A DNA stretch of 64,000 nt, taken from assembly GCA_035631875.1 (NCBI GenBank), contig DASQHX010000011.1:186001-250000 (forward strand), written 5' to 3'. Shown here one piece after another: positions 5,090 through 18,431 of the stretch. Within the stretch, counting starts at the first letter, position 1. Every line of letters starts with the position of its first letter. Origin of the DNA: Nitrosopumilaceae archaeon (GTDB lineage Archaea > Thermoproteota > Nitrososphaeria > Nitrososphaerales > Nitrosopumilaceae). The notes beneath the pieces are model-generated. The model was not told where the DNA came from, did not search any database, and worked only from the letters and a program-made list of their open reading frames with translations. The position numbers and the translations under genes are program-made.

Positions 5090-5704
5090 TTAAGCTTGTA
5101 ATAATGCAATCTCAGCTTCTGCGGTTCTAATTATCTTTGATTTTTCTATGCCTACATGTCTTACGTGAATTATTTTTTTAACAGCAGCCATGATATCAGA
5201 GTTTATTTTTCCAAATGCAGTAGCTTGAATGAATTGTTCAATGGTCATTTCAGGAATTGTTTTTGACATAACATCTCTTGCAATTAATCTAAGTGCATGT
5301 TTACGAGATGTATTTAATTTCTTTTGTGTTAGAGCAATTATCTTTATGCGGAAAATATTTCCATCTTTTGTTTTATAGTCACCTATGAAGCTAATCAAAG
5401 AAGATCCACGTCTTACAAGACTTCTGAGAAATTCTTTTGCATATTCATATCGTTTAAAAATCGTTGTTGCAGTTTCACCATCTATTTTGCTTATCTGAAA
5501 ATACAATTTGAATTGGTGCTGTGAAGGATCACCTTTGACTATATCAAACAAAGTAACTTCTATTACTCTACCTATCGCATTTGCATCATCAGTTATGGGA
5601 ATATAGGCTATGGGCACATTGTTAAATGCAGAAGGCGCAAGTACAGTAACCCATTTTTTCTCTCTCCATTTATCCTTGACTCTGGTTGTCTTTTGACGTG
5701 CCAA
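5090..5704 (-). CDS. rps3ae: 30S ribosomal protein S3Ae (eS1)
   Basis: A 204-residue basic protein beginning MARQKTTRVKDKWREKKW, followed by VLAPSAFNNVPIAYIPITDD and the KLYFQI...RSLVRRGSSLI core that identify archaeal S3Ae/eS1. Length is normal for the family. It follows serS by 43 bases and precedes the COG1325 gene by 32 bases, so it is part of the minus-strand translation operon. It is a structural component of the small ribosomal subunit. Confidence 0.95.
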   Translation of the reverse strand: MARQKTTRVKDKWREKKWVTVLAPSAFNNVPIAYIPITDDANAIGRVIEVTLFDIVKGDPSQHQFKLYFQISKIDGETATTIFKRYEYAKEFLRSLVRRGSSLISFIGDYKTKDGNIFRIKIIALTQKKLNTSRKHALRLIARDVMSKTIPEMTIEQFIQATAFGKINSDIMAAVKKIIHVRHVGIEKSKIIRTAEAEIALLQA

Positions 5705-5747
5705 CTATAATCGACGTTTCTAGCCAAAATATAAGTTGTACGACTTT

Positions 5748-7010
5748 TTAGATCGTATTTTTGTTAATGTATTTTTGTAAAACCTTTGGTATAGAAATAT
5801 GACCATCCTTTGTTTGAAAATTTTCCATCAAGGCAACAAGAGTTCGTGTTGTAGCTACAAGTGTGCTGTTTAATGTGTGGACATATTGAGGCTGGTCGTT
5901 AGTTCTATCACGAAATCTTATCTTGAGTCTTCTTGCTTGAAAGTCCAAACAATTAGAACATGAAACTATTTCACGATAGCTGCTCTGTCCTGCCATCCAA
6001 GCTTCAAGATCATATGTTTTTGAAGAGATCTTTCCAAGATCTCCACTTGATAGTATCATTATTCTGTATGGCATCTCAAGTTTCTGGTAAAACTCTTCAA
6101 CATTAGATAACATCTGTTCATGTTCTTTCTTAGATTCTTCTGGTCTGGAAAAAATAAACTGTTCTACTTTTTCAAATTGATGTACGCGGAAAATGCCTTT
6201 TTGATCTCTTCCATGTGCACCTGCCTCTTTTCTAAAACATGGGCTTACACCTGCATATCTAAGAGGTAAAATCTTTCCTTCCAAAATTTCATCAGAATGC
6301 ATTGATGCTACCGCATGCTCTGATGTGCCAATTAGATAGAGATCATCACCTTCAATTTTGTAAATAACATCTTCAAAATCTTGTGCAATTATGGCGCCTT
6401 CCATAGATGAACGATTTATCAAATAAGGTGTTTGAATTGGAGTATAATTTTTTTCAGAAAGAAAATCTAGTGCATATTGAATTAATACCTGGCTTAATTT
6501 TACAAGATCGTTTTTCAAATAATAAAATCTTGCCCCTGCTACTTTGGCTGCTCTTTCTAAATCTACAAGATCAAGACTTTGTGATATATCTATATGATCT
6601 TTTACTTTAAAATCAAACTGAGGAATTTTTCCCCATTTTCTTATTTCCTTGTTTGCAGTATCATCTTTTCCGATTGGGACAGATTCATCAATTAAATTAG
6701 GAATGGTTAGTGCTAGTTTTGTATATCCTGATTCTATTTGGGTCTGTTCGGTTTCAAGATTTGTAAGTATTTCAGATGTTTCCTGCATTTGTTCAATGAG
6801 TAATGTTGTATCTTGATTGATTTTTTTCCTTTTTGCAATCTCTATAGAAATTTCATTTCTTTTCTTTCGTAATTCATCTGTTTTAATAATGAGATCTCTA
6901 CGTTCCTTGTCTAATTTTATCAATTCGTCTAATGGAAAATCCATATTTCTGTCATTAAGCATTTTTCTAATTTTATCAGAATTTTCTCGTAAAATTTTAG
7001 GATCAAGCAT
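5748..7010 (-). CDS. serS: seryl-tRNA synthetase
   Basis: A 420-residue class II synthetase of the common (bacterial/eukaryal-like) type. The N-terminal 110 residues form the antiparallel coiled-coil tRNA arm (DKERRDLIIKTDELRKKRNE). Motif 2 is seen as CFRKEAGAHGRDQKGIFRVHQFEKVE and motif 3 as NSTLVATTRTLVALMEN; the serine-binding TSE appears in IGTSEHAV. Start codon overlaps the pcc1 stop by one base. It charges tRNA-Ser with serine, and also feeds selenocysteine-free translation only, as no Sec machinery is visible here. Confidence 0.96.
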   Translation of the reverse strand: MLDPKILRENSDKIRKMLNDRNMDFPLDELIKLDKERRDLIIKTDELRKKRNEISIEIAKRKKINQDTTLLIEQMQETSEILTNLETEQTQIESGYTKLALTIPNLIDESVPIGKDDTANKEIRKWGKIPQFDFKVKDHIDISQSLDLVDLERAAKVAGARFYYLKNDLVKLSQVLIQYALDFLSEKNYTPIQTPYLINRSSMEGAIIAQDFEDVIYKIEGDDLYLIGTSEHAVASMHSDEILEGKILPLRYAGVSPCFRKEAGAHGRDQKGIFRVHQFEKVEQFIFSRPEESKKEHEQMLSNVEEFYQKLEMPYRIMILSSGDLGKISSKTYDLEAWMAGQSSYREIVSCSNCLDFQARRLKIRFRDRTNDQPQYVHTLNSTLVATTRTLVALMENFQTKDGHISIPKVLQKYINKNTI

Positions 7011-7252
7011 TAGCCAGTCACTCTGAGTACCACTTGGGCATGTTCAAGGACCTCATCAATAGTAGAAATTAATGTTCGTATATTTCCTTTACCTTGAAAT
7101 GTAAAGATAAGAGAATTGTTAACATTTTCAATCTCCATGGAAAGATTCTCTGGGAAGTTTATGTTGTCTGGTGCTAAGGCCTTTCGTATGGAATTAGATT
7201 TTTGCGGTGTAAGATTATTTAGAAAGACTTGAACTTTACACTCTAGTGACAT
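7010..7252 (-). CDS. pcc1: KEOPS complex subunit Pcc1
   Basis: An 80-residue protein with the Pcc1 pattern: basic helix IRKALAPDNINFPENLSM, a strand of ENVNNSLIFTFQGKG and a final helix LISTIDEVLEHAQVVLRV. Pcc1 is the dimerising and tRNA-binding subunit of KEOPS, which makes the t6A modification at tRNA position 37. It overlaps the DHH gene by 17 bases and touches serS, so the three are translationally coupled. The small size is normal for the family. Confidence 0.85.
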   Translation of the reverse strand: MSLECKVQVFLNNLTPQKSNSIRKALAPDNINFPENLSMEIENVNNSLIFTFQGKGNIRTLISTIDEVLEHAQVVLRVTG

Positions 7253-8636
7253 TTTCTTCTAAACAGCCTAAGAATTCGTCCAATTTGTCTTTAGTTATTC
7301 TAGCTCCCGCAGCTGCATTATGACCACCTCCGACTCCAGAAACTTTTGTTGCACATGATCTCATTAGTAATCCTAAATTAACCTCAGATTTACATCCTGT
7401 AGATTTTCGTGATGAAAACTTGATCGTGCCATTCTCTCCATTTGTTCTTAATATGATGATTCTACCTGTGTTTTTTTGTGAGCCACCTAGAAGCGAAGAT
7501 ACTGCACCTGTCATGTTTTCTGATACTAATCCTTCTCCATCTACCATTACATATTTGCCGTTGTCCACTACTCTCCAACGCTCACTTGAAAGTGCGTTCA
7601 TATAAGTTCGTAATAATGTGCGATATTCTAAGAGAATATTTTCTCCTTCTTCTAACATTCTTGTTCTGTCTCCCATACAAACTGCGATTCCAACTCCGGC
7701 CTTACGAATTCTTCCACAGGAGTTTAGCATAGTGGAAAATTCTCTTGCATCACGCAAAAAACTGCGTTTATCTTCACCAGAAAGAGTATATGTATATCCA
7801 ACCAGTTCATCCATTATTTCCGTAGCGTTTTTACTTGTTGTAAATTTAGAAATTGTTTGAAGCAGAATTCTTTTTTCATCTTCAGTAAGCTCTGCGGGAA
7901 CGCGCCATCTACTTCCATCTTTTAATTTAATTCCAGATGAATTCAACAGTGATAAACATGCATCCCTATTCCACGTAAGTCCTTCTATAAACGGGTGTGA
8001 TGTAAAAGCAAGTGCGTCTGGGAGTGGCCTTGTTTCCCTTCCAACTAGCAATATGTCAAGATCAATTTCAACTTGACCATTTTTTTTAGCGACAGATGCA
8101 ATATCTAAATTAATTCCAGAAAAAGATTTCTTTTCACCTTGATCTTGTCTGTCACCAAGAGCAGCTACAACAGCTATCCATGCAAGATCAGTATTCTCTC
8201 TATGTAGTGCATTTGAAACTAAATATGCCATACCACCAGCTGATACTTCTACACCGCCATCAATATCATACTTCCATGCGTTAATTACTCGTTCATTGTC
8301 GAATTCTTCTTCTGGTATTTGATGATGATCAACAACTATCCAGTTGTCATCTAATCCTGAATCAAGTTCCTTTGCAAATCCGCCACCAAGATCAGTAATT
8401 ATGTGAAATTCTCTTGAATCATTTTTCATTCTATCTATTAAATTCTTGTTGAATTCATTTACTGTCCTGACTGTACATTTAGCACCTGATCTTATGAGAG
8501 ATTTTGTTACAATACTTCCAGATGTTATTCCATCGCAATCAAGATGAGTTATTACTGAAATATTTCTACCAGATTTTATACAATCTGAAACCTTATCATG
8601 AAAATAAGAAAGTGCTGCATCAAGCTTACTTGTCAT
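7236..8636 (-). CDS. DHH/DHHA1 phosphoesterase (archaeal RecJ/GAN-like)
   Basis: A 466-residue DHH-family phosphoesterase. Motif I is ITHLDCDGITSG (residues 26-37), motif III/DHH is WIVVDHHQIP, and the C-terminal DHHA1 motif is VSGVGGGHNAAAGAR. These residues bind two Mn ions in single-strand exonucleases of the RecJ/GAN group. Placement between rps15 and pcc1 is common in archaea. It may act with the replication GINS/CMG complex or in RNA 5'-end trimming; the sequence alone does not decide between DNA and RNA substrates. Confidence 0.88.
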   Translation of the reverse strand: MTSKLDAALSYFHDKVSDCIKSGRNISVITHLDCDGITSGSIVTKSLIRSGAKCTVRTVNEFNKNLIDRMKNDSREFHIITDLGGGFAKELDSGLDDNWIVVDHHQIPEEEFDNERVINAWKYDIDGGVEVSAGGMAYLVSNALHRENTDLAWIAVVAALGDRQDQGEKKSFSGINLDIASVAKKNGQVEIDLDILLVGRETRPLPDALAFTSHPFIEGLTWNRDACLSLLNSSGIKLKDGSRWRVPAELTEDEKRILLQTISKFTTSKNATEIMDELVGYTYTLSGEDKRSFLRDAREFSTMLNSCGRIRKAGVGIAVCMGDRTRMLEEGENILLEYRTLLRTYMNALSSERWRVVDNGKYVMVDGEGLVSENMTGAVSSLLGGSQKNTGRIIILRTNGENGTIKFSSRKSTGCKSEVNLGLLMRSCATKVSGVGGGHNAAAGARITKDKLDEFLGCLEENVTRV

Positions 8637-9085
8637 TACTCCAGTTGAGCTATGACTGACTTATATTTCCAAGTTTTAGGAATGCGGCCTATTTTTTTAT
8701 AATATAAAGAAAGTCTGTGAACCTTTGCTTCCAATAACTCAAGAGATCTTACATTTCGCCTATCTGATGTATGTGTTTTAAGATGTTTTTGTAACCCTAA
8801 TGCCTTGTTTACAATATTATTTAGATCTTCAGGCATATCAGTTTTGATCCCTTTTTGAGTAAGTATTTCTGTAATAGATTTTTTCACTATTAGTTTAGTA
8901 AGTGGAATTGCATGTTGATCTCTGAGTTTTATTCCTATCTCACTTGTTTTTAGACCCTCTTTTGCATATTTCAAAATTAATTCCTCAATTTCGGCAGGAT
9001 TCTGTTTTACCCATGTTGGCGCACTAGGTGTAACTGGTCTGATCGAATGTGATTGCCCATGTCTATGTGAGTGCATTCTGCCCAT
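8636..9085 (-). CDS. rps15: 30S ribosomal protein S15 (uS15)
   Basis: A basic protein of about 149 residues. From the chosen start it reads MGRMHSHRHGQSHS, the usual archaeal/eukaryal S15 opening, and ends with the conserved LLEAKVHRLSLYYKK and PKTWKY segments. The frame is open to 9112, but the ATG there lies in the AT-rich element that is the likely TATA box (9107-9118), so 9085 (or 9094) is preferred. Stop and the next start share a base at 8636. It heads the translation operon running to 4429. Confidence 0.94.
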   Translation of the reverse strand: MGRMHSHRHGQSHSIRPVTPSAPTWVKQNPAEIEELILKYAKEGLKTSEIGIKLRDQHAIPLTKLIVKKSITEILTQKGIKTDMPEDLNNIVNKALGLQKHLKTHTSDRRNVRSLELLEAKVHRLSLYYKKIGRIPKTWKYKSVIAQLE

Positions 9086-9200
9086 ATGTCGCATGTCTGT
9101 GGAGCAAAACATAAACGTTACTTAGACTTTGCAAAAATTATTAGCATTTGACACAAAAGTTAAATATGAACTAACGCACATTTCATGGCAGGTGCTTAAT

Positions 9201-9521
9201 ATGAACAAACCTATCATAACTAGCGTGGCTCTGTTGAGCCTCTTTGCTGCATCTGCGTTTTTACCTATGGCAGCTGCACAATATAGCAGCAACCCAGCTT
9301 ACTCACAAGGTGGCGGTGGTGGTGTTACATTAGAGGAGCAGTTGAAACTAGCCCATGCTAAGGTAACTGAAGCCGCAGCAAATCCACATACTGGTTCTGG
9401 TACTCCAGTTCTTGATGCAAATGGTGTAGTCGGTGCATCAATAGTAGTCGGTGCAGTATTTGGTGGAATTTTCCTTGCCTTTGTAGTAAGAGCAAAACAA
9501 GCAAAGAAAACAGCATACTAA
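9201..9521 (+). CDS. small secreted/membrane protein, possible accessory AMO subunit
   Basis: A 106-residue protein with a clear signal peptide (NKPIITSVALLSLFAASAFL, cleavage after AAA-Q near residue 26), a Gly-rich linker, an amphipathic helix (TLEEQLKLAHAKVTEAAAN) and one C-terminal membrane helix (GASIVVGAVFGGIFLAFVV) ending in RAKQAKK. A TATA-like GTTAAATATG at 9158-9167 and a short leader with AGGTG precede the ATG. Codons are richer in C-ending forms than in neighbours, like the amo genes, which suggests high expression. With the next gene it forms a pair of small membrane proteins whose size and topology would fit the newer archaeal AMO subunits AmoY/AmoZ; that is inference only. Confidence 0.7.
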   Translation: MNKPIITSVALLSLFAASAFLPMAAAQYSSNPAYSQGGGGGVTLEEQLKLAHAKVTEAAANPHTGSGTPVLDANGVVGASIVVGAVFGGIFLAFVVRAKQAKKTAY

Positions 9522-9617
9522 CTCTTCCTTTTTATTATTTTAATTCTCTATTGTAAGATGAGTCGTTTTTCCTTTAACAGAAATGTATATATCATACATG
9601 AAATGTTTTGATTGTTG

Positions 9618-9884
9618 ATGAGCGCTGTATTTGCTATGCTCGTAGGTGTGCTGTCAAACTTTGCTGGTCAAATAGGTCCAAACTATGACCCATTGTTCTA
9701 TGATGTCATGATCTACATATTTGCGACCATGATGTTTGCAGTATTCCTCCTTGGAGTAATTGCATTCTGGCTTAGAGTACACGGTCTAGGTGGAGATACC
9801 AGAGAAAGATGGGTCTCAGAACTTGACAAGCACTTTGAGAAAGAAGGCATCGGCTTGATACCAGACAACGGAAAATACTGGTAA
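9618..9884 (+). CDS. small two-helix membrane protein, possible accessory AMO subunit
   Basis: An 88-residue protein: first helix AVFAMLVGVLSNFAG, second helix MIYIFATMMFAVFLLGVIAFWL, then a soluble tail with conserved-looking GGDTRERWVSELDKHFEKEG and a DNGKYW end. I start it at ATG 9618, 28 bases after the TATA box TGTATATATC (9583-9592); two upstream in-frame TTG codons are less likely. Codon choice (ATC, TAC, GAC) resembles the amo genes. The pair 9201-9884 is a candidate for AmoY/AmoZ, or for other redox-chain subunits; I cannot settle this by eye. Confidence 0.7.
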   Translation: MSAVFAMLVGVLSNFAGQIGPNYDPLFYDVMIYIFATMMFAVFLLGVIAFWLRVHGLGGDTRERWVSELDKHFEKEGIGLIPDNGKYW

Positions 9885-9936
9885 ATTTCCATTCTTTTTC
9901 CTTATTTTTCATTAATTAAATGATAATGAATATTGT

Positions 9937-10455
9937 CTAAGTTCCAGGTGGTGTGAAGCTTGGACTGCCACTTTCTGAAGCTTTCGAAATGAATTCTGCC
10001 TTGTAATGAGCTCCGTCTTCAAGCTGTGTATGTATAAAGTCTGGTGACTCTACTCCATTTACAAGTATTCTTGATTTAGTTTCATCCATATCACGTAAGG
10101 GAAATTTCCAAACCCATAGAAACTGTCCAATTTCAAATCTGTATTTGTTGTTCCAAGCTGCATAAATCACTCCGTCATTTGAAAGCGTATAAAGTGATTT
10201 TTGACATCCTCCCTCAAATCCTACTTTGGCTGGAATATCTGCTTTTTTTCCATCCACCGTTAATTCTAAAGTTGCAGAAATTTTGTAGTTTATGTCGCGA
10301 TTGTTTATGCATTGGTATAGTGGATCATCTTTGTGTAGGTAATTCTGAATTTCAAGACCGCCAAAATAAATCGCAAAACCTATTGCTGCAGTAATTGCTA
10401 AGAATTTGAGAGTTTTTTTGCGCTTTGTAGGATCGCCCATTCCAGGCCAAATCAT
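9937..10455 (-). CDS. membrane-anchored hypothetical protein
   Basis: A 172-residue protein with a short basic N-terminus (GDPTKRKKTLKF), one membrane helix (LAITAAIGFAIYFGGLEI) and an extracellular beta-rich domain containing two Cys (residues about 49 and 84) that could form a disulphide. The C-terminus is Ser/Pro-rich. It is convergent with the 88-residue membrane protein. I do not recognise a functional family; it looks like the conserved single-helix surface proteins common in ammonia-oxidising archaea. Confidence 0.65.
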   Translation of the reverse strand: MIWPGMGDPTKRKKTLKFLAITAAIGFAIYFGGLEIQNYLHKDDPLYQCINNRDINYKISATLELTVDGKKADIPAKVGFEGGCQKSLYTLSNDGVIYAAWNNKYRFEIGQFLWVWKFPLRDMDETKSRILVNGVESPDFIHTQLEDGAHYKAEFISKASESGSPSFTPPGT

Positions 10456-10602
10456 AGATTTAGTCTATGTATTAGAGTTATAATGATTTGTATAGTTTCT
10501 ATATTGTCTAAATAGGAACATGATCAGTTAAACAGAAAATATGTTATACCTGTTCTATGAAATGCTATTTTTAATATTTTAAAAATAATTTTTTAAAAGA
10601 AA

Positions 10603-10947
10603 TTAAAGTGTGGAATCTCCACGTTTTTTAGATCCGATATCTATAGTTTCTGCTACGTCAGTTATGAAGATTTTTCCCTCACCTGCTGCTCCTGTGCTTG
10701 CCGCAGAAAGAATCTTTTCCACAATTTTGTCGACCAGATCATCCTTAGATACTACCATGATCGTCGAATTCGCATTAAATGCAGGTCTATATGCACCAGT
10801 TCCTCTTCCGCTAGCAAACACTGGTCTTTCAAGCTGGCCTCTTCCTTTTGTATCGGAAATTGTCAAACCGCCAATTCCAGTTTCTAGTATTGCAGAAGCA
10901 ACTACTTCTACTTTCGATGCTGGGACTACTGCTTCAATTTTTTTCAT
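10603..10947 (-). CDS. PII-family nitrogen regulatory protein
   Basis: A 114-residue GlnB/GlnK-like protein. The first strand KKIEAVVPASKVEVVASAI, the B-loop TGAAGEGKIFITDV and the following ETIDIGSKKRGD are standard PII features that bind ATP and 2-oxoglutarate. The T-loop (GRGTGAYRPAF region) differs from the canonical sequence and has no Tyr at the usual uridylylation site. PII proteins plug Amt channels and tune nitrogen enzymes according to 2-oxoglutarate and ADP/ATP. Amt lies 3.5 kb away, separated by the repeat-bounded segment. It is transcribed divergently from the Cas4-like gene. Confidence 0.9.
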   Translation of the reverse strand: MKKIEAVVPASKVEVVASAILETGIGGLTISDTKGRGQLERPVFASGRGTGAYRPAFNANSTIMVVSKDDLVDKIVEKILSAASTGAAGEGKIFITDVAETIDIGSKKRGDSTL

Positions 10948-11027
10948 AATTTATAACCCAAACCACATATGAATCGCTTTTATTAAAGTATTGCTAAAAT
11001 TTATACAAAAAATTTCAATTAAAAATA

Positions 11028-11101
11028 ATATCATAAAAAAAAATTTCTAGGATAAAATACCTTTTATAGTTGCAGTACAGAATTCGAAGAGATGTCTGGA
11101 G
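11028..11101 (+). repeat. 74-bp direct repeat, copy 1 (amt promoter copy)
   Basis: Bases 11028-11101 are identical to 14433-14506. The repeat holds an A-tract, the TATA box (CTTTTATAGT, 11061-11070), a GTACAGAATTC motif (11075-11085) and the first ten coding bases (Met-Ser-Gly). It ends within codon 4 of both genes. The perfect identity in an AT-rich intergenic region means a recent copy or conversion event. Confidence 0.95.
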
Positions 11102-11841
11102 TACAGAAAGTGCAAAAAGGAAAAATTTTAGGAAAAGTTCAAGACAAAATTAAAGAAGGAATTGAAAATTATCGTGCTGCAGGTGACGCTCCAGCTAAAG
11201 TTGATGTCTATGATGTAATTGAGCAAGTATTTGCAGTTATTAATCCAAATTTAAACGATGAAAGTAAAATCTCTGTAGATGAGGTTAGTGGATGTCTAAG
11301 AAGCGCATACCTTGATCGTAAATCTCCTGCAGAACGAACACATAAACAAATGATGTCTACTTTAATGGAAAAAAGTGCTCTAAGTGTATTAGAAAGACCA
11401 TCTGAGGGAATAATTGAAATTGATTCTAAACTAAAACTAGTTGGTCGTGCAGATAGGGTAGAGGATGATGTCGTAATGATGTTTAGAACTGCAGAAGAAT
11501 TGCCAGAGATGCCACATGCTGAGCATTTTATGCAATTAAATTCATACCTACACATGTTTGAAAAACCAGAAGGTGTTATAGTGTATTTTGATAAAGATGG
11601 CAATGAAATGGAATTTATCGTTCCAAAAAGTGAGAAACTTTTTGGTGAAACTAAACGAAGAGCACGTATTCTTAATACGTTATTAAATAATAACGTGATA
11701 CCAGCTCTAGAACCATCACCTAGATGCATGGGCTGTGCACATAACGAAAAGTGTTATTATCCATCAGAAGACAAGCAAAAATGGGGATTCTGGGCTCGCG
11801 GCAAGTGGCGCGAATTAAAACCAAAAGATTCTATCTTTTAG
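11092..11841 (+). CDS. Cas4-like Fe-S PD-(D/E)XK-fold protein, active site apparently altered
   Basis: A 249-residue protein with the Cas4/RecB-type layout: Cys68 in SGCLRSAY, GRAD motif (Asp121), QLNSY (148-152), and a C-terminal CMGC...C cluster (Cys212, 215, 221). These four Cys are placed as in Cas4 proteins that hold a 4Fe-4S cluster. The expected E-x-K pair after the GxxD motif is read as Met130-Phe-Arg132, so nuclease activity is doubtful. No CRISPR array or other cas gene is present. The promoter and first codons are an exact copy of those of amt, so expression should follow the ammonium transporter. It could be a DNA-end processing protein or a DNA-binding relic of that fold. Confidence 0.65.
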   Translation: MSGVQKVQKGKILGKVQDKIKEGIENYRAAGDAPAKVDVYDVIEQVFAVINPNLNDESKISVDEVSGCLRSAYLDRKSPAERTHKQMMSTLMEKSALSVLERPSEGIIEIDSKLKLVGRADRVEDDVVMMFRTAEELPEMPHAEHFMQLNSYLHMFEKPEGVIVYFDKDGNEMEFIVPKSEKLFGETKRRARILNTLLNNNVIPALEPSPRCMGCAHNEKCYYPSEDKQKWGFWARGKWRELKPKDSIF

Positions 11842-11853
11842 ATTTTAATTTTT

Positions 11854-12615
11854 TTACCAAATATTAAATCCATCAGGAACCTTACGTATTCCAATAAGAG
11901 AACCTGTTTCTTTGTCTCTGATGATGTTAGATCCTTGTGGTATCCAATCATCAGGAGAAACAAAATAGATAGTTCCATCAATCATTAGTGTGATGTATTT
12001 GTATGTAGTAGCTAATTGTTGTTCTGCAAAATTAAGCAAACTTGAAACAGGAATTAATCTTACAGAATTTTTACATGATATTATTTTTGAATCTTTACTT
12101 TCCCAAATAGGATATGGTGAATATTTTACTCCTCTGGCTCTAAAAAATAATGGTTTGAGAGATATTATCAAACATAATGTGAGAAAAAATATTCCTGTAA
12201 CAAAATAAAGTTGAGCGTATTGGTCTATATGAAAATGACTCGCAGAAATAGTGCCATACCCTAATCTATTTGCAATTGTTGGAGGTAAATTTTGCAGATC
12301 AAAATATTTTGCTTGAATATAATACATACCTGTATACGTCATCAACGAACCAGTTAAGGAAAGAAAAGTTGGTATTGAACCTCTCCAAAAAATACTAAAT
12401 ACAAATAAAGCTAGAATCGGTAATATTAGAAAATCTGTTTCTTGTCTAGCTCTTGGGTTGATGCCACTTGCAATGGAAAAAATAATCTGTAAAATGATTA
12501 GGGAGAAAAACGAAAATAAACTAATTGAACTCCAAAATCTACTCCTTGGAAAAAACCAATCTTGAATTGTATCAATAAACGCCCATCTTTCAATATTTGA
12601 TTTTACCTTCACCAT
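11854..12615 (-). CDS. multi-pass membrane protein of unknown function
   Basis: A 253-residue protein with about four to five membrane helices in its first 170 residues (SISLFSFFSLIILQIIFSIA; LILPILALFVFSIFW; FLSLTGSLMTYTGMYYI; FVTGIFFLTLCLIISL) and a C-terminal soluble domain of about 85 residues ending GSLIGIRKVPDGFNIW. I do not recognise the family. It is convergent with the Cas4-like gene, 12 bases apart, and lies inside the 3.4-kb segment bounded by the 74-bp repeats. Confidence 0.65.
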   Translation of the reverse strand: MVKVKSNIERWAFIDTIQDWFFPRSRFWSSISLFSFFSLIILQIIFSIASGINPRARQETDFLILPILALFVFSIFWRGSIPTFLSLTGSLMTYTGMYYIQAKYFDLQNLPPTIANRLGYGTISASHFHIDQYAQLYFVTGIFFLTLCLIISLKPLFFRARGVKYSPYPIWESKDSKIISCKNSVRLIPVSSLLNFAEQQLATTYKYITLMIDGTIYFVSPDDWIPQGSNIIRDKETGSLIGIRKVPDGFNIW

Positions 12616-12658
12616 GTAATATAATGGGCATCGTCAGAATTATGTACTTCTATTTCAA

Positions 12659-12883
12659 CTACAATAGATCTGAATCTTCAACCTTGTTTAGATATGCACG
12701 AGTCTTGTATGGTTTGATCTGACCTTTGTGATAATAAAGTATCTTTGTTCCATGTTCAAAAGGAACTATTTCAATAGAATCTGTTGATTGCATGGAACTT
12801 TCAGATTCTTTTAGATATTCAAATAATTCTTTTTTACTCATCTTGAGAAGCTCATTTAGAGGTTTTATTTTAGAAACTCTCAA
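12659..12883 (-). CDS. small charged hypothetical protein
   Basis: A 74-residue soluble protein: an N-terminal helix (LNELLKMSKKELFEYLKESE) followed by a beta-rich half (IEIVPFEHGTKILYYHKG). No recognised family. It precedes the 253-residue membrane protein gene on the same strand (43-base gap), so the two may be co-transcribed. Coding status rests on an uninterrupted frame, a normal amino-acid make-up and an AT-rich upstream element; moderate certainty. Confidence 0.5.
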   Translation of the reverse strand: MRVSKIKPLNELLKMSKKELFEYLKESESSMQSTDSIEIVPFEHGTKILYYHKGQIKPYKTRAYLNKVEDSDLL

Positions 12884-13022
12884 TGATTTACAACTATGTT
12901 AATCTTATATAAAAATAACAGGTAGTCATATGATCAAAATTTTTACAAGTGATTTTAAAAAAATAAGATCTAAGATGAAATATTTAATCATTAAATATGA
13001 GCAATGACGTGCCAAGATAGGT

Positions 13023-13499
13023 TTGGCTGATTCGAAGATAAATTGGTATGATGATTTTCTTGGTGTGGGTTATCATTTCTATGATGTGAGACCCAGAATT
13101 CTTTTAATTTTTGATGAAAGGAAAAAAATTCCCACAATATGGAACAAAGTTATAAAATATTGGCCAGATGATGAGATTAAAATTAGATTTGTTGAAAAAG
13201 AGGATTCATTTGAATTTGTTCTATACTGTGAATCTCGTATTATACTTGCAACATGGGTTTTCTTAAAATCTCTCAAAATATCTGACAATTACAAGAGATT
13301 TAAAGAAGATTATGATGGAGCTGCTAACTTTGGTTTGGCATTATACAAACCAAAAGGTGATTCATACGAACTTGAGATATTCAAATACACAAAAAGAATC
13401 ACAAATCTAAAATTCTTAAATGAATCTGATACTGAACTAGATTTTATTGTCAGTAGATCTAGAAAAATTCTCCAGGATACAAAAAAAGAACAGAATTAG
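13023..13499 (+). CDS. hypothetical soluble protein
   Basis: A 158-residue protein, start TTG, 27 bases after an AT-rich TATA-like element (ATTAAATATG near 12991-13000). The sequence is mixed alpha/beta with aromatic-rich segments (NWYDDFLGVGYHFYDVRP) and a helix LATWVFLKSLKI. No family recognised. It lies inside the repeat-bounded segment and faces the PH-like gene convergently. Confidence 0.55.
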   Translation: MADSKINWYDDFLGVGYHFYDVRPRILLIFDERKKIPTIWNKVIKYWPDDEIKIRFVEKEDSFEFVLYCESRIILATWVFLKSLKISDNYKRFKEDYDGAANFGLALYKPKGDSYELEIFKYTKRITNLKFLNESDTELDFIVSRSRKILQDTKKEQN

Positions 13500-13556
13500 A
13501 TTTCAATTTTTTATATTATTTTTATAATTTTAAATCTGGGAAATTAAAATAAAATC

Positions 13557-14039
13557 TCAAATACGTGATTTTAGCAAATCCATCCATGCAGTCCAATCTA
13601 CATTATAATACAAAAGTGGTTGTCTAATAGGATAATTGGTCACACTCTTAGCTATGACAAAATCATACATTCTCTCCTTTCCGTCTTTAGAAAATTTTAT
13701 TCTCATAAAATTTACCTTTCGTAGTGTAATTTGGCTAACTTCAATAATGGCATCTAAAGGCATAATCCAGCTTTTTGTATTCTCAGAAATGTCTTCATCA
13801 AGTTGAGTTTCGGAATAGTCCCATAGTTGTGTTACTTTTACTTTATCTTCACCAAAATATTTCTCCCTTTCTTTTGGTGAAACATACAGATATCGTGGAA
13901 CAAAGATTAGATTTTTGTTTGTTATAACCAGAATCCCTTCCTTGCTTTTATTGAAAAATCCCTTTAATCCAGGTACAATTGCCCAGATTTTCGGTAATGC
14001 GGCAATCATATGCTCATCTTCTTCTAAATTTACTCTCAC
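13557..14039 (-). CDS. bacterial-PH/GRAM-like domain protein
   Basis: A 160-residue soluble protein whose core reads GILVITNKNLIFVPRYLYVS, then MPLDAIIEVSQITLRK and a strand MRIKFSKDGKERMYDFVIA. This order (strand that turns on, switch helix, strand on substrate) is typical of bacterial PH-like and GRAM-like folds, which bind lipids or proteins at membranes. The assignment is by pattern only. It lies in the 3.4-kb segment between the 74-bp repeats. Confidence 0.55.
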   Translation of the reverse strand: MRVNLEEDEHMIAALPKIWAIVPGLKGFFNKSKEGILVITNKNLIFVPRYLYVSPKEREKYFGEDKVKVTQLWDYSETQLDEDISENTKSWIMPLDAIIEVSQITLRKVNFMRIKFSKDGKERMYDFVIAKSVTNYPIRQPLLYYNVDWTAWMDLLKSRI

Positions 14040-14137
14040 TATCTTAGTAGATGTATTACTGCTTCAAATTAGTCTATCTGTGAAAAAATAATTTTTGCAT
14101 ATGTCATTACAAAAAATAGGATTTGTTGCTGTTTGTT

Positions 14138-14302
14138 CTATTCATGAGTTCCATGAGATTCAAAGTTGAATCCATATGTTCCAGCATGTTTGTTTTCCTT
14201 CACTCGTTTGTACCTATAGGCGCGTTCTGCAAAATAGATTGCGATAGTAATTGCAGTAGTAGCTGCTGTTGCGATGTATATTGCCCATCCTGCTTCTGAC
14301 AT
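14138..14302 (-). CDS. 54-residue single-helix membrane protein
   Basis: A short frame, ATG at 14300-14302: MSEAGWAIYIATAATTAITI continues as one membrane helix to IYFAERAYRY, then a polar tail with His-rich end (ESHGTHE). A TATA-like TTATTATAC lies 25-34 bases upstream on the minus strand, as for leaderless genes. It is divergent from amt, and its promoter shares the 14303-14432 region. Small one-helix proteins beside transporters often act as subunits or regulators; nothing here proves that. Confidence 0.6.
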   Translation of the reverse strand: MSEAGWAIYIATAATTAITIAIYFAERAYRYKRVKENKHAGTYGFNFESHGTHE

Positions 14303-14432
14303 AAAAACTATAACCACTTGTCTAGTATAATAATTTTTCTTAAATTTTTTATAATTTTAAGATATATGTCAATTTTCTAAAAATTAATTTCTAATATATG
14401 CACGATCAGACAATATTTTAAAATTTAACATT

Positions 14433-14506
14433 ATATCATAAAAAAAAATTTCTAGGATAAAATACCTTTTATAGTTGCAGTACAGAATTCGAAGAGATGT
14501 CTGGAG
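14433..14506 (+). repeat. 74-bp direct repeat, copy 2 (at amt)
   Basis: Identical to 11028-11101. Contains the amt TATA box (CTTTTATAG, 14466-14474), the GTACAGAATTC motif (14480-14490) and the first ten bases of amt. The distance between the two copies is 3405 bp, same orientation. Confidence 0.95.
14466..14474 (+). promoter_or_regulatory. TATA box of amt
   Basis: CTTTTATAG centred 27 bases before the amt ATG, giving a leaderless transcript. The GTACAGAATTC motif sits between the TATA box and the start, where a repressor would block transcription. Confidence 0.65.
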
Positions 14507-16002
14507 CATTAGAAGCAACATCAATTCAATTTGTCACTAAAAATAAATGGCCACTAGTATTTGCAGTGGCAGCTTTACTTGTTACAGTTGCAGGATTTAC
14601 AGCAGTTCAAGACGCACATGCCCAATTTGGCCCTCTTAACAAATTAGCAGATCCAAACAAAACATCTGAATTCCACTGCAATTCTCCAATGATGCCACCA
14701 GGTAACGGTACATTTGGAGGAAGTTCTGCACCCTGTATTGATACAGGAGACACCACTTTCATGTACGCTGCAGCATCATTCGTCATGATAATGACTCCTG
14801 GTGGTGTAGGTTTCCTATATGGTGGTATGACAAGAAGAAAGAATGCATTAACAGTTATCTTACAAAACTTTTTGGTTTATGCAATAGTTAGTATTCAATG
14901 GGTAGTATGGGGTTACGCCATAATGTTTGGTCCAAGTGCAGATCCGTATGGATTCATTGGTAATTTAGACTGGGCAGGATTGAATAATGTTCTTACAAAT
15001 GCACCTGCTGATGTGTATGCTCCAACTATTCCACATTTGGCATATGTAATGTTTCAGCTTATGTTTGCAGCAATTACTCCAGCATTAGCTATAGCAGGTT
15101 ATGCAGATAGAGTAAAGATGAGTGCATTTATGATACATGTAGTTCTATGGACCACATTTATTTACGATGTTGCAGGTCACGCCAACTGGTCATTAGGAAG
15201 TCAAGGAAGTGCACCAGGTTGGTTATTCACTTTGGGTACAGAAGACTTTGCAGGTGGTACAGTCATTCACATTACATCAGGATTTGCAGGATTAGCAACA
15301 GCGATGTTCCTAGGAAGAAGAATTGGTTATGGTAAAGCACCATTTGAACCACATTCAATTCCATTAGTTATGTTGGGTGCTACTTTACTTTGGTTTGGTT
15401 GGTTCGGTTTCAACCCAGGAAGTGCAGGCTTTGCAGGTTTCTTGGAAACAGAAGCATTCCAAAATACCAACATTGCTACAGCAGTTGCAGCAATGTGGTG
15501 GGTATTTCTCGCTTGGGCTCACACTGGAAAGACTAGTGCAATGGGTGCCTCAGCTGGTGCTGTAGCAGGTCTAGTTGCAATTACGCCGGCGTCAGGATTC
15601 ATAGGAGTCTATGCATCTATAATCGTGGGCTTTGCATGCGCGACAGTCTGCTTCTACTGTTTGATAATAAAGAATAGAAGAAGAATAGACGATGCATTGG
15701 ACACTTGGCCAGTACATGGTATGGGTGGAGTTGTTGGTGCACTATTGACTGGTGCATTTAGCGAAAAACGCATTAATCCATATGGACATGATGGTTTGTT
15801 CTTTGGAAACCCACAACAAGAACTCATCAATGCAATGGGTGCAGGATTTGCAGCAACATGGGCCTTTGGTATTACGCTCTTGATCTGGAAGATCCAAGAT
15901 GTGATTTGGCCTGGCGGTGTAAGAGTTACACCTAAAGAAGAAGAAATAGGTCTAGATATCTCACAAGTAGGAGAAAGAGCCTACAACATGAGCGAAACCT
16001 AG
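14497..16002 (+). CDS. amt: Amt-family ammonium transporter
   Basis: A 501-residue transporter. Residues 1-43 are a signal peptide ending AHAQ; the mature protein has eleven membrane helices. Key Amt residues are visible: IYDVAGHANW (conserved Asp and His), FAGGTVIHITSGFAGL (first channel His) and HGMGGVVGALLTGAF (second channel His). It imports ammonium for assimilation and supplies nitrogen near the AMO genes. Leaderless start, TATA box 27 bases upstream. Its promoter is one copy of the 74-bp repeat. The C-terminal tail (EEEIGLDISQVGERAYN) matches the regulatory tail that PII contacts. Confidence 0.96.
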   Translation: MSGALEATSIQFVTKNKWPLVFAVAALLVTVAGFTAVQDAHAQFGPLNKLADPNKTSEFHCNSPMMPPGNGTFGGSSAPCIDTGDTTFMYAAASFVMIMTPGGVGFLYGGMTRRKNALTVILQNFLVYAIVSIQWVVWGYAIMFGPSADPYGFIGNLDWAGLNNVLTNAPADVYAPTIPHLAYVMFQLMFAAITPALAIAGYADRVKMSAFMIHVVLWTTFIYDVAGHANWSLGSQGSAPGWLFTLGTEDFAGGTVIHITSGFAGLATAMFLGRRIGYGKAPFEPHSIPLVMLGATLLWFGWFGFNPGSAGFAGFLETEAFQNTNIATAVAAMWWVFLAWAHTGKTSAMGASAGAVAGLVAITPASGFIGVYASIIVGFACATVCFYCLIIKNRRRIDDALDTWPVHGMGGVVGALLTGAFSEKRINPYGHDGLFFGNPQQELINAMGAGFAATWAFGITLLIWKIQDVIWPGGVRVTPKEEEIGLDISQVGERAYNMSET

Positions 16003-16169
16003 AAAGATTTTTCTTTCTATACTTTTCATTTTACAAAATCTTAACATATTTTCAATTATACATTAGGAATTTCACCAGACAATCCTTTTCAAATTGTTTT
16101 ATGATTACTTTGTAATATTTGTACAAGCTTGGAAACGGTAAAAAGGAGTAGATTTACCTCTCTTTATCT

Positions 16170-16367
16170 ATGGTTGACAGATGGGCAGTTTTTGTAATAT
16201 TAGAATTTGTAAGTGCAGCTATTGGATTCTTTTGGGGATTTTACACAGGTAAGGCACTCTTCTTATGGATTGGAGGCTTTTTCTTCTCACTTGGAGTCTT
16301 TGCAGCAACCAGATGGGGCTTTGATAAATGGAAACAAAAACAAAAGCCAAGAAAATGGAAAAAGTAA
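16170..16367 (+). CDS. small two-helix membrane protein
   Basis: A 65-residue protein with two hydrophobic helices (AVFVILEFVSAAIGFFWGFY and FLWIGGFFFSLGVFAATRW) and a strongly basic tail (DKWKQKQKPRKWKK) that should face the cytoplasm. ATG start, with an AT-rich element upstream. No family recognised. It lies between amt and the amo genes. Confidence 0.6.
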   Translation: MVDRWAVFVILEFVSAAIGFFWGFYTGKALFLWIGGFFFSLGVFAATRWGFDKWKQKQKPRKWKK

Positions 16368-16478
16368 AAATAAATCACATATTTTATCACCAATAAAAAC
16401 ATAATTAGATTTCATTTTTAGATTTGGGGGATTGGTATGTTTATATCAATCACAAACTGGTAAAACGACAGAGAATAA

Positions 16479-17171
16479 TTGTCAAGTAGATCTGTACGCT
16501 GGGGAAGAAAAAAAAGATATGCTATTGCATCAGTCGTAGCAATAATTGGTATCACATTTGCATATTACAATGTAATACAAACTGCTCCGTATAAAACTAC
16601 TAAAGAATGGAATTTTGATTCTTACAAGAATGATACAGTGCCTGATGGTTTTTCATATCTTCAAACTGATTCACAACCTGGTTACTGGGTTGTTAAGTCT
16701 GATCCATCCGCACCATCTAAACCAAATGTACTTGCTAAATTGACAGATAATGATACTACATTTGATTATCACATTCAACTAATGCCTGACGGTGTTGAAA
16801 GTACAAATTCAGAAACAAGTGTACAGTTTAAGATCAATTCTGGAGAAAAAGAACAAGCAGCAGGTCTGATAATTAGATTTATGGACAATCAGCATTATTT
16901 TGTACTGGTAGCAGATTCTAAGAATAATCTCTTTTCACTATGTAAAGCTGATCCCGAGAAACTCTTATGCATTGAAGATAAATCAGTAAATATTCCTCTG
17001 GGTCAATGGCATATAATAACTACTGATGTATCTGCACAAGGTGTAGCTGGATATCTTGATGGTAAATTGCTTATTCAGAGATATGATCAACACTATCAAA
17101 ATGGGCAGCTTGGACTGTGGACAAAAAAAGATACAGAAGCTTATTTTGATAATCTGACAATAAAGTATTGA
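16479..17171 (+). CDS. membrane-anchored concanavalin-like (LamG/DUF1080-type) protein
   Basis: A 230-residue protein: TTG start, basic N-terminus, one membrane helix (YAIASVVAIIGITFAYYNVI), then an extracellular beta-sandwich. The pattern EWNFDSYKNDTVPDGF ... AAGLIIRFMDNQHYFVLVAD ... PLGQWHIITTDVSAQGVAGYLDGK ... GQLGLWTKKDTEAYFDNLTI is that of LamG-like/3-keto-disaccharide hydrolase-like domains, which bind carbohydrate or act as surface adhesins. Two Cys could make a disulphide. No catalytic residues can be assigned with confidence. Confidence 0.7.
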   Translation: MSSRSVRWGRKKRYAIASVVAIIGITFAYYNVIQTAPYKTTKEWNFDSYKNDTVPDGFSYLQTDSQPGYWVVKSDPSAPSKPNVLAKLTDNDTTFDYHIQLMPDGVESTNSETSVQFKINSGEKEQAAGLIIRFMDNQHYFVLVADSKNNLFSLCKADPEKLLCIEDKSVNIPLGQWHIITTDVSAQGVAGYLDGKLLIQRYDQHYQNGQLGLWTKKDTEAYFDNLTIKY

Positions 17172-17203
17172 TCTTATAATAAATAATCAAAACTATTCAA
17201 GAA

Positions 17204-17416
17204 CTATTTTTTGAATATTTTATCTATGATGAATTTAACTATTAAAAAAATTCCAGTTATGGCAAATATGTATTGAATGACTGATAATGCATTAATTATG
17301 TCAGAGTTCTGAAAAATTGATAATGCCGGAGAATTATGATCTGAAGGAACATGGAAGACTTGTATTGAGGCTGCTATTATTATTAGAATCATAGCAATTT
17401 TAAGAATAATACTCAA
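17204..17416 (-). CDS. small two-helix membrane protein
   Basis: A 70-residue protein: helix 1 ILKIAMILIIIAASIQVFHV, a short outer loop (PSDHNSPALSIFQNSD), helix 2 IQYIFAITGIFLIVKFII, basic end. The longest frame uses TTG at 17416, but the ATG at 17392 fits the TATA-like TTTTAAAAC near 17426 better. Function unknown. Located next to the AMO genes, so it belongs on any list of candidate accessory subunits, though with no direct sign. Confidence 0.5.
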   Translation of the reverse strand: MSIILKIAMILIIIAASIQVFHVPSDHNSPALSIFQNSDIINALSVIQYIFAITGIFLIVKFIIDKIFKK

Positions 17417-17495
17417 TATGTTTTAAAAGAAACGATCATCATTAAAAATTTCTATAAGACAAAACTAAAAATACATTGACTATCAATTGTAAAAA

Positions 17496-17759
17496 ATGAT
17501 TGGTATGCGTGGTCAAATGATACTGGCCATAATACCTAGTTTTGTAACTCAGCTTATAGCTTTTTACAGAATTAAAAAATTTACAAATGGGTTAATTGTA
17601 GAATTGAGTATTTTTCTAGCTGATACTTTTGTTCAAATGATCATTCCGTGGCCATTTGGAATGATTTTTGCTTTGCCACTAACTTTGGGTGTGCCTGTAT
17701 ACTTTGTAAGAAAATGGACTTTGGATTACAACCACATGCCAACTGGTATGTTTGATTAA
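17496..17759 (+). CDS. small membrane protein beside amoB
   Basis: An 87-residue protein with two hydrophobic segments (LAIIPSFVTQLIAFYRI and FLADTFVQMIIPWPFGMIFALPLTLGVPVYF) and a short polar end (RKWTLDYNHMPTGMFD). Start ATG at 17496 or the ATG three codons later. It is convergent with amoB, 105 bases away. Position and topology make it a second candidate for an accessory membrane subunit of AMO. No family recognised. Confidence 0.6.
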   Translation: MIGMRGQMILAIIPSFVTQLIAFYRIKKFTNGLIVELSIFLADTFVQMIIPWPFGMIFALPLTLGVPVYFVRKWTLDYNHMPTGMFD

Positions 17760-17864
17760 GTCAGAACTGATCAATAACATATTGACAGAATTATAACATG
17801 TATGTAATTTGAGTATATTTTCTAATACAACTTTGATAAAATGAAAAGAGAGGGGGAATTTGTT

Positions 17865-18431
17865 TTAAATCACTTGCCACGGTCTTGTTGCAAACGTTAC
17901 AACATAACCAACGGCTATTATTATCGACTGATAGGCTACATTTGTGTATGGGATTGGTTTTATGATTGGATCTCCTGTGACCACAATTGTTTGTCCTGGA
18001 CCAAGTCCTGGGCCTATACTTGCGATGTTAAGCTGTGTGTGCATGTGATATACTGCTGGTTCTAGAGCCCTGATTGTCAATGTGTAAGGAATGACAGAGT
18101 TTCCTGGAATGTCTATAACGTTACCAGGTGGGTCTCTTGCTACAATCTCCCATCTGTTACCTGCATTAGGAGAGTCACCATATACAGTATACCAGCCTCT
18201 TAGGTCTCTTTGTACGAGACTAACGAATTTGCCTGATACTGTTAGTGTGTCACCTGTGTGGACAGATTGTTTTGACCATGTTTCATCGTCTATCCTGACA
18301 AAACGACTTTGTAATTGTGCCTGTACGCCGTGTGCTTCTGCGTGCTGAAACATTTGGGCCAATGATGGTCCAATTGCTCCAAGTGCTACAATTACACCAA
18401 GTGCTGCTACGATTAATTTCTTATCTACCAT
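17865..18431 (-). CDS. amoB: ammonia monooxygenase subunit B
   Basis: A 188-residue archaeal AmoB. Signal peptide (LIVAALGVIVALGAIGPSLA) with mature start near QMFQHAEAHGVQAQLQ; the N-terminal His and the HMH motif (VYHMHTQLNI) correspond to the copper site of the periplasmic cupredoxin domain. One C-terminal membrane helix (YQSIIIAVGYVVTFA). As in all archaeal AmoB, the second cupredoxin domain and second helix of bacterial AmoB are missing. It is transcribed divergently from amoC across a 275-bp promoter region. Confidence 0.97.
   Translation of the reverse strand: MVDKKLIVAALGVIVALGAIGPSLAQMFQHAEAHGVQAQLQSRFVRIDDETWSKQSVHTGDTLTVSGKFVSLVQRDLRGWYTVYGDSPNAGNRWEIVARDPPGNVIDIPGNSVIPYTLTIRALEPAVYHMHTQLNIASIGPGLGPGQTIVVTGDPIIKPIPYTNVAYQSIIIAVGYVVTFATRPWQVI

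Follow-up and report, generated by a model that had tools for sequence, protein, structure and literature searches.

A promoter core common to an ammonium transporter gene and a Cas4-like gene in Nitrosotalea-type archaea, and probable gene conversion between its two copies

Genes of the locus and their order in relatives

The window (the whole stretch of 64,000 nucleotides that was analysed) carries a PII gene and an ammonium transporter gene, amt, with six genes between them. The starts of amt and of the first of these six genes lie in two copies of a 74-bp sequence. The features are:

10603..10947, minus strand: PII signalling protein, 114 aa, divergent from the Cas4-like gene (PF00543, E 1.6e-18)
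11028..11101, plus strand: promoter copy 1 (Cas4-like gene), a probably homogenised 74-bp tract identical to copy 2, with its 3' end 10 nt into the coding sequence
11092..11841, plus strand: Cas4-fold-like protein, 249 aa, profile matches below cut-offs, Fe-S cysteines kept
11854..12615, minus strand: membrane protein, 253 aa, truncated in L081
12659..12883, minus strand: hypothetical protein, 74 aa, conserved beside the Cas4-like gene
13023..13499, plus strand: hypothetical protein, 158 aa, conserved
13557..14039, minus strand: 160 aa protein, conserved ('PH-like' is the name given in the original prediction only)
14138..14317, minus strand: one-helix protein, 59 aa, conserved beside amt
14433..14506, plus strand: promoter copy 2 (amt), a 74-bp tract identical to copy 1, with its 3' end 10 nt into the coding sequence
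14497..16002, plus strand: amt, ammonium transporter, 501 aa, ortholog (by synteny) of the high-affinity Amt2 of Nitrosotalea devanaterra

The original prediction had named PII and amt correctly from the sequence and had placed the same six genes between them. The amt product scores above the family cut-off (TIGR00836, 394.6 bits vs. 343.3; PF00909, E 7.5e-106), and the 160 aa 'PH-like' protein had no match in Pfam or NCBIfam. AmoB is encoded nearby, with partial scores to bacterial AmoB profiles. Since AmoB, PII and Amt are neighbours here and the close relatives of the window comprise Nitrosotalea and Thaumarchaeota MAGs from soil and groundwater, the host was taken to be an ammonia-oxidizing archaeon. 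Because the window amt lies beside amo and PII, it was assigned to Amt2 of N. devanaterra, which passages of a report on that organism describe as a transporter of the high-affinity type with transcripts >10-fold above those of Amt1 (PMC4836417).

In the window, PII, amt and the block between them are flanked (9129-18431) by amoB and by two small genes for conserved membrane proteins (130 and 90 aa, near 9129-9884). In Nitrosotalea, amoYZ lie 11-12 genes away from amoABCX (PMC10030591), and the two small genes may be amoY and amoZ. In three relatives (L093, L106 and L107) amt reads in overlapping frames; these are probably sequencing errors of the assemblies and not pseudogenes.

The order PII (minus), Cas4-like (plus), membrane protein (minus, variable), 74 aa (minus), 158 aa (plus), 'PH-like' (minus), one-helix (minus) and amt (plus) was found in the window genus, in Nitrosotalea and in relatives, and again in further stretches retrieved by their promoter site. 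The block with both promoters occurs in about 35 genomes, N. devanaterra included, and the Cas4-like gene and amt are spaced about 1.8-3.4 kb apart in Nitrosotalea-type ammonia-oxidizing archaea. The membrane-protein gene is the sole unstable member of the block, being decayed in L081 (7845-7967) and, in many Nitrosotalea, not detected. In Nitrosocaldus the block is rearranged. In L092, a MAG labelled Nitrososphaeraceae and so assigned to a different family, the block from the Cas4-like gene to the one-helix gene is inverted between amt and PII (5157-10959), unlike in all others. Its amt is 80% identical to the window amt, and either lateral transfer or a contaminating contig is possible.

The 74-bp repeat and the promoter core

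Sequence comparison confirmed that 11028-11101 and 14433-14506 are a perfect 74-bp repeat in the same orientation, with a spacing of 3405 bp, and the match continues at 92% across 97 nt. Each copy takes in AT-rich upstream sequence, a TATA box and the opening ten bases of the reading frame, ATGTCTGGAG, start codon included. As the original prediction had claimed, the repeat contains the TATA box, GTACAGAATTC and ATGTCTGGAG. That prediction had also assigned the ten coding bases to amt (14497), which is correct; they begin the unrelated Cas4-like gene (11092) as well.

The repeat is the sole exact direct repeat of at least 25 nt in the 64-kb window, in which no inverted exact repeat of at least 25 nt was found. 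Across the whole genome (1,756,488 bp), matches to the repeat beyond chance fall in these two places only, the next best being short and AT-rich (E = 0.02). The 23-nt GCAGTACAGAATTCGAAGAGATG occurs 2 times, with 0.00 expected in shuffles. In thirteen other 20-kb samples, which define the repeat background of the genome, exact repeats of at least 25 nt are few, and those found are confined to contig ends and to stretches of short tandem repeats or repeated domains; the single one inspected (L160) is a coding repeat within a repeated-domain protein.

Each 74-bp copy contains a conserved core:

11029..11069, plus strand: conserved core of copy 1, a TATCATAAAA box followed by GGATAAAATACCTTTTATAG; dyad at 11052-11067; TATA box TTTTATAG at 11062-11069
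14434..14474, plus strand: conserved core of copy 2, laid out as in copy 1; dyad at 14457-14472; TATA box at 14467-14474

The core thus consists of a TATCAT box and an AT-rich dyad over the TATA box, followed by a nearly leaderless start. The dyad ATAAAA-TACC-TTTTAT overlaps TTTTATAG, and TTTATAG starts 29 nt 5' of the ATG. A dyad in this position would suit a dimeric regulator that competes with TBP.

In Nitrosotalea-type genomes, TATCATAAAA...TTTTAGGATAAAATRCCTTTTATAG stands at both the Cas4-like gene and amt. With at most one mismatch, the 20-nt core GGATAAAATRCCTTTTATAG occurs in 31 of the 250 Nitrosopumilaceae genomes searched, in nearly every case at two sites, while a reversed control pattern was found in none of the 250. 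Each site that was read proved to be the start of the Cas4-like gene or of amt. Two different element patterns both returned exactly the two promoters in the window genome, where a looser search added one site with three mismatches; neither there nor in the 250 family genomes was a wider regulon with the element found. An alignment of 28 Cas4-like and 21 amt promoters has nearly invariant core columns and variable flanks. In Nitrosotalea the core alone is common to the two promoters, the leaders having diverged (6-12 of 20 identical). The promoter pair was not seen at the amt gene and Cas4-like paralog of Nitrosopumilus. In L050 and L096, unrelated MAG contigs break at the identical base of the promoter core, the contig starting with TACCTTTTATAG.

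With promoter sequence in common, the Cas4-like gene and amt are likely to be under common control. The original prediction had put a 'nuclease-like' gene under amt control. Its regulatory part agrees with a core that about 31 genomes keep at precisely this pair of genes, but the word 'nuclease-like' is doubtful in view of the residues described below.

The Cas4-like protein

The 249 aa protein is related to Cas4 and falls below the family threshold. It scored 34.1 bits against TIGR00372 (cut-off 65) and 16.7 against PF01930 (cut-off 22.7), and matched the PADLOC Cas4 with E 6e-10 and PDB 4IC1 with E = 2e-5. The Fe-S cysteines C68, C212, C215 and C221 are present in all 30 homologues. The E-x-K of 4IC1 aligns with M130-F131-R132, so that the (D/E)xK motif is degenerate: the position of the catalytic acid (130) is M, L, V or I in 30/30 homologues and the motif lysine is R in 21/30, while position 121 is D or E. 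The PD-(D/E)xK catalytic residues that mark a Cas4 nuclease were accordingly not found, and neither Cas1 nor Cas2 was present among the neighbours tested. The predicted structure has a mean pLDDT of 52, too low for the model to be of use. Since the catalytic acid is lost in all 30 homologues compared, the protein is probably not a nuclease.

The catalytic acid is likewise absent from a distant paralog group of Nitrosopumilus-type genomes, whose genes lie by the atp operon and a different amt. A widespread 217-aa Cas4-like paralog of Nitrosopumilaceae (L011-L030) also keeps the four cysteines but not the acid, and Cas4-fold Fe-S proteins without activity may therefore be general in ammonia-oxidizing archaea.

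A stand-alone Cas4 has been described in other ammonia-oxidizing archaea beside the atp operon and a high-affinity Amt (PMC6863869). It is a distant relative of the protein studied here (33-41% identity), with the four cysteines, no catalytic acid and an amt within a few kb, but it differs in its atp-gene neighbourhood and has no matching promoter pair. The protein also resembles the solo-Cas4 family (PMC5704561) in its Cas4 profile match, its four cysteines and the lack of Cas1 and Cas2 among the neighbours tested here. Since that 2017 survey described the Cas4 catalytic motifs as conserved throughout (PMC5704561), the acid-less proteins are exceptions. The nucleocapsid protein of TTV1, an inactivated Cas4 derivative (PMC4625639), is likewise a Cas4 fold that lost its activity and was put to another use; it is a viral structural protein with no link to ammonium transport. 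The Amt2/PII cluster beside amo in N. devanaterra has the same amt, PII and amo neighbourhood, and the passages of PMC4836417 that describe it do not mention the Cas4-like gene or a shared promoter. A search by guessed locus tags found no literature on the Cas4-like locus of N. devanaterra.

Origin and meaning of the promoter identity

A species tree built from thirteen neighbouring proteins (2523 amino-acid columns) placed L079 as basal, followed by the window and L078 as sister to L080 and L081 (support 100/99); DNA support for this fork was 91/95. In L079, L080 and L081, the Cas4-like and amt promoters differ from each other at identical sites, and these differences were therefore taken as ancestral to the genus. 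At nine of those sites, from -50 to -10, the Cas4-like copies of the window and of L078 have the base of the amt copy instead; the amt state at four of the nine rests on L080 and L081 (the upstream half of the L079 amt promoter is missing at a contig end). Both copies in these two genomes also have a new A at -5, and positions -68, -65, +11 and +13, outside the tract, still differ between the copies. Under a uniform model, the probability that nine independent substitutions would land so is about 5e-16. Sites -13 and +6 are of the Cas4 type in both focal copies, so that a small transfer from the Cas4-like copy to the amt copy, or two chance substitutions, is needed as well. The sequence 5' of copy 1 is orthologous to the Cas4-like upstream region of the sister species. 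An internal tract has thus taken the bases of the other copy with copy number and flanks unchanged, the pattern expected of gene conversion.

The promoter tree placed the Cas4-like copies of the window and L078 among amt copies, and the two promoters of L082 grouped together, as did those of L092. Copies within a genome proved closer than orthologs on a supported species tree, and over all copies the AU test rejected a single clade of the Cas4-like promoters (p = 0.0004). For the focal genus alone (66 columns), separate ancestry was not rejected (p = 0.18); the case for conversion is drawn from the site table, with its nine switched sites and kept flanks. L092 has an independent identical promoter pair of 84 nt, with the genes divergent in its inverted arrangement. 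Elsewhere in the clade the likeness is limited to the core and the leaders differ, so that wholesale homogenisation is occasional, not constant.

Taken together, we consider it quite probable that the two genes share an old and private promoter pair, the copies of which gene conversion has recently made uniform in the window lineage. In Nitrosotalea-type archaea, amt2 and the gene for the Cas4-fold Fe-S protein each have the same core promoter, which was found at no other gene. One regulator or promoter type would drive both, so that production of the Fe-S protein would follow that of the transporter. Conversion would have taken place in the ancestor of the window genome and its nearest relative, L078, mostly with the amt copy as donor and the Cas4-like copy as recipient, over a tract of about 56-75 bp, leaving the promoters identical through the start codon. 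The comparison directly shows the repeat, its age, its restriction to two genes, the conversion-type site pattern, the kept cysteines and the loss of the catalytic acid; from these we infer that conversion was the mechanism, that amt and the Cas4-like gene are expressed together, and that the product of the latter has a role other than that of a nuclease. A bolder proposal would make the Cas4-fold Fe-S protein, catalytically dead, a partner or sensor dedicated to Amt2 in Nitrosotalea-type soil ammonia oxidizers, with the two expressed at a fixed ratio through a private promoter pair that conversion renews; this is rather doubtful.

Purifying or parallel selection on two promoters that bind the same factor might also keep them identical with no recombination between the copies. 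The core is strongly constrained in all genomes and the same bases would be favoured at both genes by a factor that binds both, but the identity passes beyond the core into the leader and ten coding bases, which differ between the copies of the sister species. Nine sites now match amt and one novel base is present in both copies, whereas leaders elsewhere in the clade are merely 6-12 of 20 identical, and we regard selection without recombination as improbable. An assembly artefact in which one promoter was copied over the other is less probable still: repeats longer than the k-mer can collapse, and the L050 and L096 MAGs break exactly at the promoter, yet the independent MAG L078, 94.9% identical to the window over 14.9 kb, has the same 74-bp identity together with flank differences of its own.

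The original prediction had read the repeats, as one of two options, as traces of an insertion that duplicated the amt promoter between two genes that are normally neighbours. PII and amt are commonly adjacent in other prokaryotes, and the segment is indeed bounded by perfect direct repeats. However, the six-gene block is the standard order in the clade, and both promoters accompany it in about 35 genomes, among them N. devanaterra. The region 5' of copy 1 is that of the Cas4-like gene in sister species, both genes had their promoter before the copies became identical, and no integrase or transposase was found among the six block genes, nor an empty site in the relatives' loci. The synteny comparison, which that prediction had set beforehand as able to refute it, gave the same gene order in many relatives, with a repeat that diverges unevenly among them, and this unevenness indicates gene conversion. 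A recent insertion or duplication of the segment is hardly credible and is refuted for the genus by synteny and by the pre-existing paired promoters; an insertion could at most be ancestral and older than the whole clade. The same prediction had allowed that the 3.4-kb segment might be lost by recombination between the repeats, and such excision in part of the population (phase variation) would join PII to amt. Perfect direct repeats of 74 bp are long enough for homologous recombination. Nevertheless, PII directly joined to amt was not found in any relative among the loci examined, and a search of all single-site genomes for the deleted form found none, the single sites being contig ends or cases with a diverged second copy. 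The block has no recombinase among its six genes and relatives with shorter identity retain the segment, which leaves excision very improbable.

Gene conversion between the two promoters would resemble the concerted evolution of prokaryotic rRNA operons (PMC8022953) and conversion in haloarchaea (PMC8223754), in that copies within a genome are closer than orthologs, the tract is bounded and copy number is unchanged. It differs from them in that the promoters and first codons alone are homologous here, the genes being unrelated, and the tract is about 56-75 bp.

Long promoter repeats, then, need not mean insertions. Where the promoters of two unrelated genes evolve in concert, they would offer a clean natural test of how regulatory sequences stay alike. 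Ammonium uptake is central to ammonia-oxidizing archaea, and their regulators and operators are little known. The core described here is a conserved candidate operator used at two genes only, and it names an uncharacterised Cas4-fold Fe-S protein as the likely co-expressed partner of the ammonium transporter.
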